This document shows positions 10,874 to 18,610 of a stretch of 64,000 bases of DNA, piece by piece (position 1 is the stretch's first letter; each line of letters starts with the position of its first letter). This stretch comes from Acidobacteriota bacterium (lineage in GTDB: Bacteria; Acidobacteriota; Terriglobia; Terriglobales; SCQP01). The position numbers were made by a program, and so were the translations under genes. Location of the stretch: assembly GCA_027315185.1 (NCBI GenBank), contig DAHUYO010000008.1, positions 1 to 64,000 on the forward strand. Direction: 5' to 3'. The notes beneath the pieces were generated by a model, which was not told the origin of the DNA, made no database searches, and saw only the letters and a program-made list of their open reading frames with translations.

Positions 10874-11074
10874 TTACCCCCCACCCACGAAGTGGACGAT
10901 CTCGATCTGGTCGTTCGCGGCGAGCCGGGTGCTTTCCCATTCGCGGCGCGGGACCAGTTGGCGATTGCGCTCCACCGCCAGCCGCTCGCTAGGCAGGCCC
11001 AGTTCGCGCAGCAGCTCCAGCAGGCTGAGGTTGGGCGCGGCTTCGCGCGCCTCGCCGTTGACGGTCACTTGCAT
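10874..11074 (-). CDS. thiS: Sulfur carrier protein ThiS
   Basis: 66 residues with the ubiquitin-like ThiS pattern (MQVTVNGEAREA, SLLELLRELGL, LAVERNRQLVPR) and a C-terminal FVGGG. The final Gly-Gly is adenylated and then carries the thiocarboxylate sulfur used to build the thiazole of thiamine. No thiG, thiF or thiH lies nearby. It is upstream of sdhC on the same strand, 76 bases away, and could share its transcript, but a functional link is not implied. Confidence 0.88.
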   Translation of the reverse strand: MQVTVNGEAREAAPNLSLLELLRELGLPSERLAVERNRQLVPRREWESTRLAANDQIEIVHFVGGG

Positions 11075-14841: not shown

Positions 14842-15144
14842 CTACTTCTTTTTCGCGACGACGGTTCGGTTGGCGGGCTTCTTTTCCGCCTTTTTGCCCA
14901 GCTTGCCGCCGGCGATGCGCAGATAATCCCCGACCGTGCGGCAATCCTCCCACTCCTCTTCGCTGAACTCCCGCGCGCCCAGCATTTCCTCGGCGCATAG
15001 GAGCAACTCGGCGACGTCAATCTCATCCAAACCGTGGTCTTCCAGCAGGGAGGATTCCGGAGTCAGCTCCGCCTCTTCGATCGCCATTTCCTCGGCGATT
15101 AGGTGGGTCAGCTTGGCATTTACGGCTTCCAACGACTTCGGCAT
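14842..15144 (-). CDS. Acyl-carrier-protein-like protein lacking the phosphopantetheine serine
   Basis: 100 residues from the ATG at 15144. Residues 1-80 follow the helical acyl carrier fold closely: a leading helix, LTPESSLLEDHGLDEIDVAE, an acidic helix and TVGDYLRIAGG at the end, where carriers usually have TVGDAIDYI. The universal Asp-Ser-Leu that carries 4'-phosphopantetheine is Asp40-Glu41-Ile42, so the protein cannot be loaded in the usual way. A Lys-rich tail (KKAEKKPANRTVVAKKK) is added. It converges with the kinase gene, ending 11 bases from its stop. It may be a scaffold or regulator, but I cannot say of what. Confidence 0.7.
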   Translation of the reverse strand: MPKSLEAVNAKLTHLIAEEMAIEEAELTPESSLLEDHGLDEIDVAELLLCAEEMLGAREFSEEEWEDCRTVGDYLRIAGGKLGKKAEKKPANRTVVAKKK

Positions 15145-15578
15145 GGCTTCAGAATAGCAGGGAAACGGGGAACGTGAGAAACGGTACAGAGCTGGCGTTT
15201 CCCTACGGAACCGTGCGCCGGGCCCCGAGGGCAACGTAGCTTTCAAGCAACAGCGGGCCGAAAGGGGTTGCCGCCGGGGGCATTCACCCGAATGTGGGCG
15301 TCACCGACAATTCTGACGGTCGAGCGGTTGGCGTCCCGTGCCGTTGCGCCGCCGATCAGGCAGTCCCAGGCATCAGCGCAGTGGGCCATTCGGCGGGAGT
15401 TTCCGGGACGCGGGTTGCAACCAGCGCTCCGTGCCGTGGCCTTCGAGCGACGGCGATCGAATTGCAGAGTTGTGTATGGCTGCCGTCCTGGTGGGAGAAA
15501 CCGGGAGTAGGCGCCAATAGTCGCGAGCGGCGGAGTGAACCAGCTCCGCCGCCGGCCGCGGCCTGGCGGGAGGAAGGT
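15145..15578 (+). other. Intergenic, no gene supported
   Basis: 435 bases between two divergent genes. Open frames here are short or antisense-like and lack ribosome binding sites. Both promoters must lie here, but I see no convincing -35/-10 pair. Confidence 0.6.
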
Positions 15579-16346
15579 ATGCGATTCCAACGAATTCGGT
15601 CCATGGGTTTGACGGCGGTGCTGGTGGCGGCGCTGAGCGCGACGGGCCTTGCGGCGCCCCAGGCCAATAACGGCACGGCCTCCGATCAGCAAATTGAGGC
15701 CGCGCTGCGGCAGGAGTTCGCGGCCAAGAGCGCCTTGCGCGAGGTGACGGTGGCGGTTCGCGGCGGCGTGGCGACGCTGGCGGGCAGCGTGCCGGATTAT
15801 CGGGCGTGGCTGGAGGCGAACCATAAGGCGCGGCAGGTTCGCGGCGTGATCGGCGTCGTTGACCAATTGCACGTGAACGCGACCAGCGTGCCGGATGCGC
15901 AACTGCAGCGTCTGCTGGCGCAGCGGCTGGAGTACGACCGCATCGGCATGGGGCAGATCTTCAACAACCTGACCCTGGAAGTTCACAACGGCATGGTGGT
16001 GGTGGGCGGCCAAGTTGCCAGCTACGCCGACCGAGATTCGGCGCTGGATATCATTGCCGACACGCCGGGCGTGCGGGGCGTCCAGGATCGCATCACCGTG
16101 GCTCCCACCTCCATCAACGACGACCGGATTCGTTTCCTGGCGGCGCGGGCCATTTACGGCAACCCCACGCTGCTGAAATATAGGATTGATCCGGCTCACC
16201 CCATTCGCATCGTGGTCGCCAATGGGCGGATCCGGCTGGAGGGTGTCGTGAACTCGCAATTGGATAAGACCGTGGCCGGCAACGCTGCTCGGTCGGTTCC
16301 CGGCGTCTTCAGCGTGCAAAACAATTTGGTTGTGGCCAAAAATTAG
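15579..16346 (+). CDS. Secreted protein with three BON domains
   Basis: 255 residues from the ATG at 15579, with a strong GGGAGGAAGG ribosome binding site. The signal peptide ends near TGLAAPQAN. Three BON-like modules follow, at about 35-105, 108-178 and 182-255; each has an amphipathic helix and a Gly-rich strand pair (TVAVRGGVATLAGSV, TLEVHNGMVVVGGQV, IVVANGRIRLEGVV). BON domains bind phospholipid surfaces and occur in envelope-stability proteins such as OsmY. The protein should be periplasmic or peripheral on the outer membrane. The frame is open further upstream, but those residues have no start signal. Confidence 0.88.
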   Translation: MRFQRIRSMGLTAVLVAALSATGLAAPQANNGTASDQQIEAALRQEFAAKSALREVTVAVRGGVATLAGSVPDYRAWLEANHKARQVRGVIGVVDQLHVNATSVPDAQLQRLLAQRLEYDRIGMGQIFNNLTLEVHNGMVVVGGQVASYADRDSALDIIADTPGVRGVQDRITVAPTSINDDRIRFLAARAIYGNPTLLKYRIDPAHPIRIVVANGRIRLEGVVNSQLDKTVAGNAARSVPGVFSVQNNLVVAKN

Positions 16347-16594: not shown

Positions 16595-18610
16595 ATGCCT
16601 GGCAACCTGTCCCCCTCCGCGCCGCGCCCGCCGGCCACGCTGCGGGCATTCTTTGGCCGGGGCGGGGCGTTGGCCCGGGCGCTGGGAAATTATGAATACC
16701 GCTCCGGGCAATGGGAGATGGCCGAGGCGGTGGAGCGGGCGCTGGCGGAACGGCGGCACCTGCTGGTGGAGGCGGGCACGGGCACCGGAAAGACGCTGGC
16801 CTATTTGGCGCCGGTGCTGGCCAGCGGGCGGCGGGTGCTCATTTCCACCGGGACCAAAAATCTGCAAGACCAGCTAATGCACAAAGACATTCCGTTGCTG
16901 GCGCGGGCCGTCGGACGGGAGCTGAAAGCGGTTTGCCTGAAGGGCCGCAACAACTACGCCTGCCGCGCCAAGATTGCCGACCTGGAACGGCAGCCGGCGC
17001 TGCTGGGATTGGCCGACCTGGACCGTTATCGCCATATCCGCGCCTGGGCGGAAGAAACCGCCACCGGCGACCGGGCGGAGTTGGAGGACTTGCCGGAGGT
17101 TTCGCCGCTGTGGGAGCGGCTGAACGCGCGGCGCGACGCCTGCACCGGCTCCAAATGCCGCTGCTTCGACGACTGTTTTCTGACCGCCATGCGGCAGCGG
17201 GCGATGGAGGCGGATCTGGTGGTCGCCAACCATCATTTGTTTTTCGCCGACCTGGCCATCAAGAGCCGGGATCTACCGGGCGTGCTGCCTCCCTATGAAG
17301 CGGTGGTGCTGGACGAAGCACATGAACTGGAAGATATCGCTGGGCAGTATTTCGGCGTGGGCCTGAGCAATTTGCAGTTGCAGGATCTGGCCGCCGACGG
17401 CGCGGCGCTGGCCAAGTTCATTGCCGCCGGGAACGGCGAGGTGGCGAATGCCGCGGGGCAGGGCTGGCTGCCGGCGCTGCAACATGCGGCGGAAGCCGGC
17501 GGGCACTTGTTCGCGGCTCTGGCCGCCGACGGTGAAGGGCGGGCGCCGCTGCGCGACCGCGCCGCCTTTGTCGCCGCCCATCGTGCCGTCTTCGAGCGCC
17601 TGCGCGGCGGCTTGGCGGCGGCCGAGGCGGGGATGGAAGCGCTGCGCCCGGCGCCGGAAGAACTGGAGCCGCTGCTGCGCCGGGTGCGAGACACGGCCGC
17701 GAAGGTGGAGTATCTGTTTACCGGCGAGGCGGAAGGGGTGGTCTTTTGGCATGAGCGGCGGGGCCGCGGCGTCTATCTGCAAGCGACGCCCATCGCCGTC
17801 GCGGCGTTGTTGGAGGAACGGCTGTTCGCCGCCACCGACACGGTCATTCTCACTTCCGCGACACTGGCCATCGAAGGGCGGTTCGACTATGTGCGGCAGC
17901 GGCTAGGCGTGCCTCACGGAGGCGAGCGCGTGGTCGTCTCCCCCTTCAACTACGAACAGCAAGCGCTGCTCTACCTGCCCGAGGATCTGCCCGACCCCCG
18001 CACGCCGGAATTCACCCCGGCGGCGGCCGAGGAGATCGCCGCCATCTTGCAATGCTCGCAGGGCCGCGCCTTCGTGCTGTCCACCAGCTATGAGCAGATG
18101 CGCGAACTGCACCGGCGCCTGGCGCCGCGCTTGCCCTTCGCGACGTTGCTGCAAGGCGAGGCGCCGCGGCATATCCTTTTAGAACGGTTCCGGCAGACGC
18201 CCGGGGCGGTGCTGTTCGCCACCAGCAGCTTTTGGCAGGGCGTGGACGTGCAAGGGGAACAATTGAGCTGCGTGATCGTGGACAAACTGCCGTTCGCCGC
18301 GCCGAATGATCCGGTGCTGGAAGCGCGCATCCGCGCGATGCAGGCCGAAGGGCGCAATGCGTTCATGGAACTGCAACTGCCGCAGGCGGTGCTGGCGCTG
18401 AAGCAAGGCTTCGGCCGGCTGATTCGCTCCCGCTCCGACCGCGGCGTGCTGGCGCTGCTGGATGGCCGGGTGTTGCGGCAGCGCTATGGTTCGGTGTTCT
18501 TGCAGAGCCTGCCGCCGTACCGCCGCACGCGGCAATTGTCGGAGGTAAAGGCGTTTTTCGCCGCCGCGCCGGGCCCGGAAGCCCGCGCCGAAAAGGAGGC
18601 GCGGGCATGA
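16595..18610 (+). CDS. dinG: DinG/XPD-family ATP-dependent DNA helicase
   Basis: 671 residues. It is a superfamily 2 helicase with an iron-sulfur cluster that unwinds DNA 5' to 3' and helps resolve R-loops and replication obstacles. Walker A is EAGTGTGKT (GTGTGKT at 61-67), the DEAH box is at 240-243 (VVLDEAHELED), and motif VI is QGFGRLIRSRSDRG. Cluster ligands are probably Cys123, Cys183, Cys188 and Cys194. It begins at an ATG with a TAGACT box six bases before. Its stop overlaps the start of the heptose kinase by four bases, so it heads an operon with the heptose genes. Confidence 0.92.
   Translation: MPGNLSPSAPRPPATLRAFFGRGGALARALGNYEYRSGQWEMAEAVERALAERRHLLVEAGTGTGKTLAYLAPVLASGRRVLISTGTKNLQDQLMHKDIPLLARAVGRELKAVCLKGRNNYACRAKIADLERQPALLGLADLDRYRHIRAWAEETATGDRAELEDLPEVSPLWERLNARRDACTGSKCRCFDDCFLTAMRQRAMEADLVVANHHLFFADLAIKSRDLPGVLPPYEAVVLDEAHELEDIAGQYFGVGLSNLQLQDLAADGAALAKFIAAGNGEVANAAGQGWLPALQHAAEAGGHLFAALAADGEGRAPLRDRAAFVAAHRAVFERLRGGLAAAEAGMEALRPAPEELEPLLRRVRDTAAKVEYLFTGEAEGVVFWHERRGRGVYLQATPIAVAALLEERLFAATDTVILTSATLAIEGRFDYVRQRLGVPHGGERVVVSPFNYEQQALLYLPEDLPDPRTPEFTPAAAEEIAAILQCSQGRAFVLSTSYEQMRELHRRLAPRLPFATLLQGEAPRHILLERFRQTPGAVLFATSSFWQGVDVQGEQLSCVIVDKLPFAAPNDPVLEARIRAMQAEGRNAFMELQLPQAVLALKQGFGRLIRSRSDRGVLALLDGRVLRQRYGSVFLQSLPPYRRTRQLSEVKAFFAAAPGPEARAEKEARA

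Follow-up and report, generated by a model that had tools for sequence, protein, structure and literature searches.

A carrier-fold gene without the attachment serine

The minus strand of the window, that is, the whole stretch of 64,000 nucleotides that was analysed, contains an open reading frame of 100 codons at 15144..14842, with an ATG at 15144 and a stop at 14842. It encodes a protein of 100 amino acids, MPKSLEAVNAKLTHLIAEEMAIEEAELTPESSLLEDHGLDEIDVAELLL..., followed by a Lys-rich end. The motif Asp-Ser-Leu (DSL) of acyl carrier proteins (ACPs) is replaced in this protein by Asp40-Glu41-Ile42, encoded by the codons GAT GAG ATT at 15027..15019. The initial annotation had reported the absence of the DSL serine, and none of the 14 orthologues has Ser at this site. 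The frame is confirmed as a real gene of acyl-carrier fold without the attachment serine; a sequencing error or a pseudogene is ruled out by the 14 orthologues and by purifying selection. The features of the locus are as follows.

14842..15144, minus strand: Ser-less acyl-carrier-fold gene, 100 amino acids, stop included (open reading frame, Pfam and PDB homology, orthologues, purifying selection)
15064..15099, minus strand: residues 16-27 (IAEEMA[IV]EEAEL), which make up the end of helix I together with loop I; all but one of these 12 positions are invariant across the family
15019..15027, minus strand: codons of Asp40-Glu41-Ile42 in the place of Asp-Ser-Leu, acid in 14 of 14 orthologues
14980..15024, minus strand: residues 41-55, forming helix II, through which ACPs recognise their partners (limits from the AlphaFold2 model, conservation from the alignment)
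14950..14952, minus strand: codon of Trp65, which is invariant and aligns with Ala59 of E. coli ACP, a residue that faces the pocket (alignment; available part of PMC12469350)
14845..14907, minus strand: Lys-rich C-terminal tail, residues 80-100 (charge count; low pLDDT from residue 88)
15294-16346: BON-domain protein with three BON stretches (Pfam), whose gene separates the Ser-less gene from dinG in the window's genus
16595..18610, plus strand: DinG-type helicase, divergent from the Ser-less gene with the BON-domain gene between them; context only, not proposed as a partner

Judged from sequence matches, the homology of the window protein to carrier proteins is well above chance. The Pfam PP-binding profile (PF00550) was matched at 5.5e-5 with 23.8 bits, above the gathering cut-off of 20.8, and 13 acyl carrier families of NCBIfam matched down to 9.2e-11, all of them under their curated cut-offs (best 41.4 versus 71 bits). 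The closest PDB sequence was Aquifex ACP (2ehs; 4.8e-11). An AlphaFold2 model built from 14 sequences has four helices, a mean pLDDT of 77 and an unstructured tail. The best Foldseek match of this model was 6lvu (E 4.8e-5, probability 1.0), and its best 50 matches were ACP structures or ACP-containing complexes. Alignment to 2n57 with VIA-align gave a Z of 13.3 and an rmsd of 1.7 over 78 residues; this Z lies near the level that the program's note calls common for helical bundles, and the claim of an ACP fold is therefore carried by sequence and Foldseek. For the window protein, the carrier fold seen in the initial annotation is borne out by these structural matches. It is weak for a divergent, long-tailed family member (G006), whose model has a longer first helix and gave weak matches (best E 0.044, rmsd 8), the six best being ACPs.

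Distribution and descent of the family

Each of the 14 genomes drawn from the window's GTDB family contains one Ser-less orthologue. The site at which the initial annotation had asked about a fixed Glu41 is acidic in all of them (Glu in 12, Asp in 2), and none has Ser; both Asp members belong to the same genus, to which the E/D variation is confined. With the family profile (E <= 1e-18), 14 of 397 genomes of the order were matched, identical to the 14 family genomes, and with the window protein (E <= 1e-12), two of 299 genomes of the class, both within its GTDB family. In a sample of the phylum, the family profile (E <= 1e-15) matched 40 of 396 genomes, of which the window's genome scored 140 bits and the remaining 39 scored 60-64 bits. 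DSL was present in all 39, each sequence having been read in a set of 57 rows that also contained ACPs of the family, second copies and duplicate entries of two genes; the Ser-less protein is therefore far apart from ordinary ACPs.

A pattern scan of genome contigs from 84,980 species yielded nine loci, all titled Acidobacteria, Terriglobia or Acidobacteriales; the patterns were derived from the window protein, so that the scan reaches close relatives only. No relative of the Ser-less protein was found among 252 pattern stretches in viral contigs. The presence of DSL in all 39 phylum matches, together with a contig scan that returned Acidobacteria-type records only, rules out a wider Ser-less family that is scored as ordinary ACP. 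The window's genome has 11 PP-binding matches, ten with Ser at the site (by eye) and the Ser-less protein alone without it. On these comparisons, the family is a conserved paralogue and no one-off, present in one GTDB family and nowhere else among the genomes searched. Titles and abstract starts of the open-licence literature described no Ser-less ACP family, and the protein is so far a Ser-less variant of a known fold from one bacterial family, with no earlier description found in that literature.

The gene is under purifying selection. For the four closest pairs among nine genomes, omega was 0.208, 0.153, 0.139 and 0.160, most of the more distant pairs being near or beyond saturation of synonymous sites. 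Phylogenetic analysis placed the Ser-less family in one clade (support 96/82). Within it, genomes of the same genus group together, except for the copies of genus g5, which are spread along the base in the midpoint-rooted drawing. Such a tree looks as expected of vertical descent. The place of the clade among the ACPs is without support (79 columns, long branches).

Comparison with the canonical acyl carrier protein

A canonical ACP with DSL was found in 12 of the 14 family genomes, and the two genomes without it are 54% and 82% complete, which rules out loss of the normal ACP from the lineage. In all eight neighbourhoods read (five of the family and three of the sister family), canonical acpP adjoins a fabF-like gene (by eye). 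Since a DSL-bearing ACP is present in these genomes, next to a fabF-like gene in the five family neighbourhoods read, the loss of the serine is not a loss of fatty acid synthesis. Two genomes of f2 (L024 and L131) have two canonical ACP genes each, close together and all with DSL.

The window protein is 31% identical to the ACP of its own genome over residues 5-75. In each of 12 genomes that have both proteins, the residues of the Ser-less protein were compared with those of the canonical ACP, using E. coli numbering. The Ser-less family keeps the equivalents of E. coli D35, D38, E41, E47 and E60 without exception; the first three correspond to D40, D43 and E46 of the Ser-less protein, which are invariant. 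Within helix II, D43, E46 and E52 are invariant throughout the family, as is D40 directly before the helix. The residues F28, F50, I54, A59 and Y71 of E. coli ACP, named in the available part of PMC9542644, with reference to earlier work, as touching or affecting the acyl chain, are not retained as a set. The positions of Phe28 and Phe50 are mixed Leu/Phe, that of Ile54 is Phe in 12 of 12 proteins compared, and Tyr71 is Tyr in none of the 11 with a letter there. The position of Ala59, the side chain of which faces the hydrophobic pocket in E. coli ACP (PMC12469350, in part), is Trp in 12 of 12 proteins of the comparison and in 14 of 14 across the family (Trp65 of the window protein), and Trp65 would fill the acyl pocket.

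Mean pairwise identity in the same 12 genomes was 0.97 for residues 16-27 of the Ser-less proteins versus 0.75 in the canonical ACPs, and 0.53 versus 0.84 for helix IV. Constraint has therefore shifted away from the side of the acyl chain and towards helix I and loop I, with the acids of helix II retained, and residues 16-27 are a candidate for a new interface.

Loss of carrier function in the Ser-less protein is close to certain. Although the Pfam PP-binding profile is still matched above its cut-off, a cargo carried on another residue or a decaying duplicate is hardly credible: no member has Ser within the 40-42 motif, Trp occupies the pocket position, and decay would conflict with the omega values of 0.14-0.21 in close pairs and the retention of the gene in 14 of 14 genomes. 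Very improbable, too, is a metal-binding module in which E35-D36-D40-E41-D43 extends calcium site A of ACP to serve as a sensor of divalent cations or as a stabiliser. Site A consists of E30, D35 and D38 in E. coli ACP, according to the available part of PMC12469350, and its residues are kept in the Ser-less protein (D40 and D43 invariant, E or D at 35), with an extra acid at 41; however, canonical ACPs already own site A, and nothing else suggests sensing.

The same alignment bears on the idea, put forward in the initial annotation, that the Glu mimics a charged, modified serine. A constitutive mimic of holo-ACP, in which Glu replaces the phosphodiester charge, might compete with holo-ACP for an enzyme or regulator among the ACP clients and thereby throttle or report on fatty acid synthesis. 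It would account for the acid that all 14 orthologues have at the very position of the phosphoserine, and for the retention of D40, D43 and E46 in and before helix II. We regard this as doubtful, given the altered acyl-contact positions, the newly conserved face formed by helix I and loop I, an E/D variation at the site in one genus only, and 14 neighbourhoods in which no fab gene was noticed and no fabF was seen adjoining the Ser-less gene (simple ORF rule; ten proteins Pfam-scanned). The acyl-contact changes leave detailed imitation of an acyl-loaded ACP hardly possible, and mimicry of a charged serine by Glu41 is possible but unproven.

Basic tails, gene neighbourhood and proposed function

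The Lys-rich tail, which the initial annotation had pointed out in the window protein (residues 80-100, net +8), recurs across the family. The C-terminal tails of the 13 uncut members have a net charge of +5 to +16 (the copy of G012 is cut by its contig end), and the cores one of -14 to -18. One genus, and in part a second, is additionally extended at the N-terminus by basic stretches of at most 126 residues, with net charges of at most +25; orthologue start codons were chosen by eye, and the N-terminal tail lengths are estimates. The tails are rich in Lys, Ala and Pro, variable in length and located at either end of the protein, and this shift between the ends suggests that the charge, not the sequence, matters. 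A simple test for Lys-rich ends, applied to the 198 genes predicted in these regions, was passed by six genes, all of the Ser-less family; the other members were missed by gene prediction or have tails that are shorter or less pure.

The gene of a DinG-type helicase is the divergent neighbour in nine of the 14 family genomes, which belong to three of the six genera, and is located elsewhere in the genome in four; no copy was found in the family genome that is 54% complete. Judged by the tree, the arrangement with dinG seems to be the ancestral one. The other contexts comprise prmC with dprA, and topA (by eye) next, in two genomes, an M16 peptidase and an amidase in two, and an M17 aminopeptidase in one. 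No neighbour is constant, and therefore none is a proven partner; dinG in particular, lying elsewhere in four genomes, is ruled out as proof of partnership. In the window, the true start of the BON-domain protein is probably a later ATG, before a signal-peptide-like stretch. Genus g2 (L050:5050-10568, L055:8363-13774) has a same-strand run of prmC, the Ser-less gene, dprA and topA with short gaps, with prmC and dprA assigned by Pfam in L050 and topA by eye. The next gene after the Ser-less one in g5 genomes encodes a protein of about 190-220 amino acids with a basic start and one hydrophobic stretch, which gave no Pfam match in the two copies scanned (L060 and L053).

L053:9661-10248, L058:13200-13856, L060:9447-10013: gene downstream of the Ser-less gene in g5

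Tails and neighbours together bear on a nucleoid- or RNA-associated protein, in which binding of DNA or RNA by the Lys/Ala/Pro tail would be the main activity, the acidic core would be a spacer or dimerisation unit, and a coupling to the DinG helicase would be ancestral. Its basis is the basic C-terminal tail (net +5 or more) in 13 of 13 uncut members, the basic N-terminal extensions of some, the lack of any other Lys-rich end among the 198 predicted regional genes, and the location beside divergent dinG in 9/14 genomes or beside prmC, dprA and topA in 2/14. It nevertheless seems unlikely, because the core is far more conserved than a tail that switches ends, and because dinG, located elsewhere in 4/14, has no strict link to the gene.

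On balance, we favour a lineage-specific ACP paralogue that has lost its carrier function and would act as an adaptor that binds proteins independently of phosphopantetheine and has a basic tether. Where a carrier cannot take up a cargo, retains the recognition acids and has a newly conserved face along with a basic tether, a binding module is the best reading. The acidic face of helix II and the newly fixed face of helix I and loop I may dock onto a partner protein, comparable to apo-AcpP on MukB, and the permanent carboxylate at site 41 may replace the charge of the holo-ACP phosphodiester. The flexible basic tail would tether the protein to nucleic acid or another polyanion, or fold back on the acidic core. 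Several results count against this adaptor reading: neighbourhoods differ between genera, with no operon pointing to a partner; the fold model (14 sequences, mean pLDDT 77) is accompanied by weak matches for G006; and solubility or autoinhibition might be all that the basic tail is for.

The mimic idea of the initial annotation is one form of the binding-module reading. Its structural or regulatory carrier mimic is supported with respect to a non-carrier structural or regulatory role, which agrees with the missing serine, the fixed acid and the ACP fold, whereas imitation of holo-ACP is doubtful. We consider it quite improbable that the protein is a permanently charged, dedicated holo-mimic that grips an ACP client through its phosphomimetic site acid and helix II and, by means of the basic tail, anchors this client to the nucleoid or another polyanion, coupling lipid synthesis to DNA or RNA.

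The Ser-less protein shares the four-helix fold, the recognition acids of helix II and the acidic core with AcpP of type II fatty acid synthesis (PF00550), but it has Glu or Asp for the serine, altered acyl-contact residues, basic tails and one more residue between helices II and III, and its gene is not beside fabF. In the complexes of AcpP with MukBEF and of ACP with IscS or NFS1-ISD11, the likeness lies in the ACP fold as a binding partner, a role that is only proposed for the Ser-less protein. The ATPase of MukB is stimulated alike by apo- and holo-AcpP (PMC8602292, available part) and thus has no need of the prosthetic group, as is likewise proposed for the Ser-less protein. Binding of IscS requires D35 and D38 of AcpP, with a contribution of E41, and is abolished by S36T, according to the part of PMC13343975 that was accessible; since IscS loses AcpP on S36T, only a subset of ACP partners could accept the Ser-less protein. 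All these systems use an ordinary, Ser-bearing ACP, whereas the Ser-less family would be a dedicated paralogue with a permanently lost site. Ser36 mutants of AcpP such as S36T resemble it in that they cannot be phosphopantetheinylated (sections available of PMC3340395 and PMC13343975), but they are laboratory mutants, whereas the Ser-less family occurs in nature and has a fixed acid in place of the serine.

ACP is a hub touched by many proteins, and the role of its surface is hard to separate from that of the prosthetic group and the acyl chain. A natural paralogue that keeps the recognition acids without the serine and the acyl-contact residues separates these roles and reveals which surface is useful in its own right; a partner, if found, would show how a carrier turns into an adaptor.

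Elsewhere on the minus strand of the window (10874-11074), a frame of 66 amino acids ends in GGG and presumably resembles the sulfur carrier ThiS.
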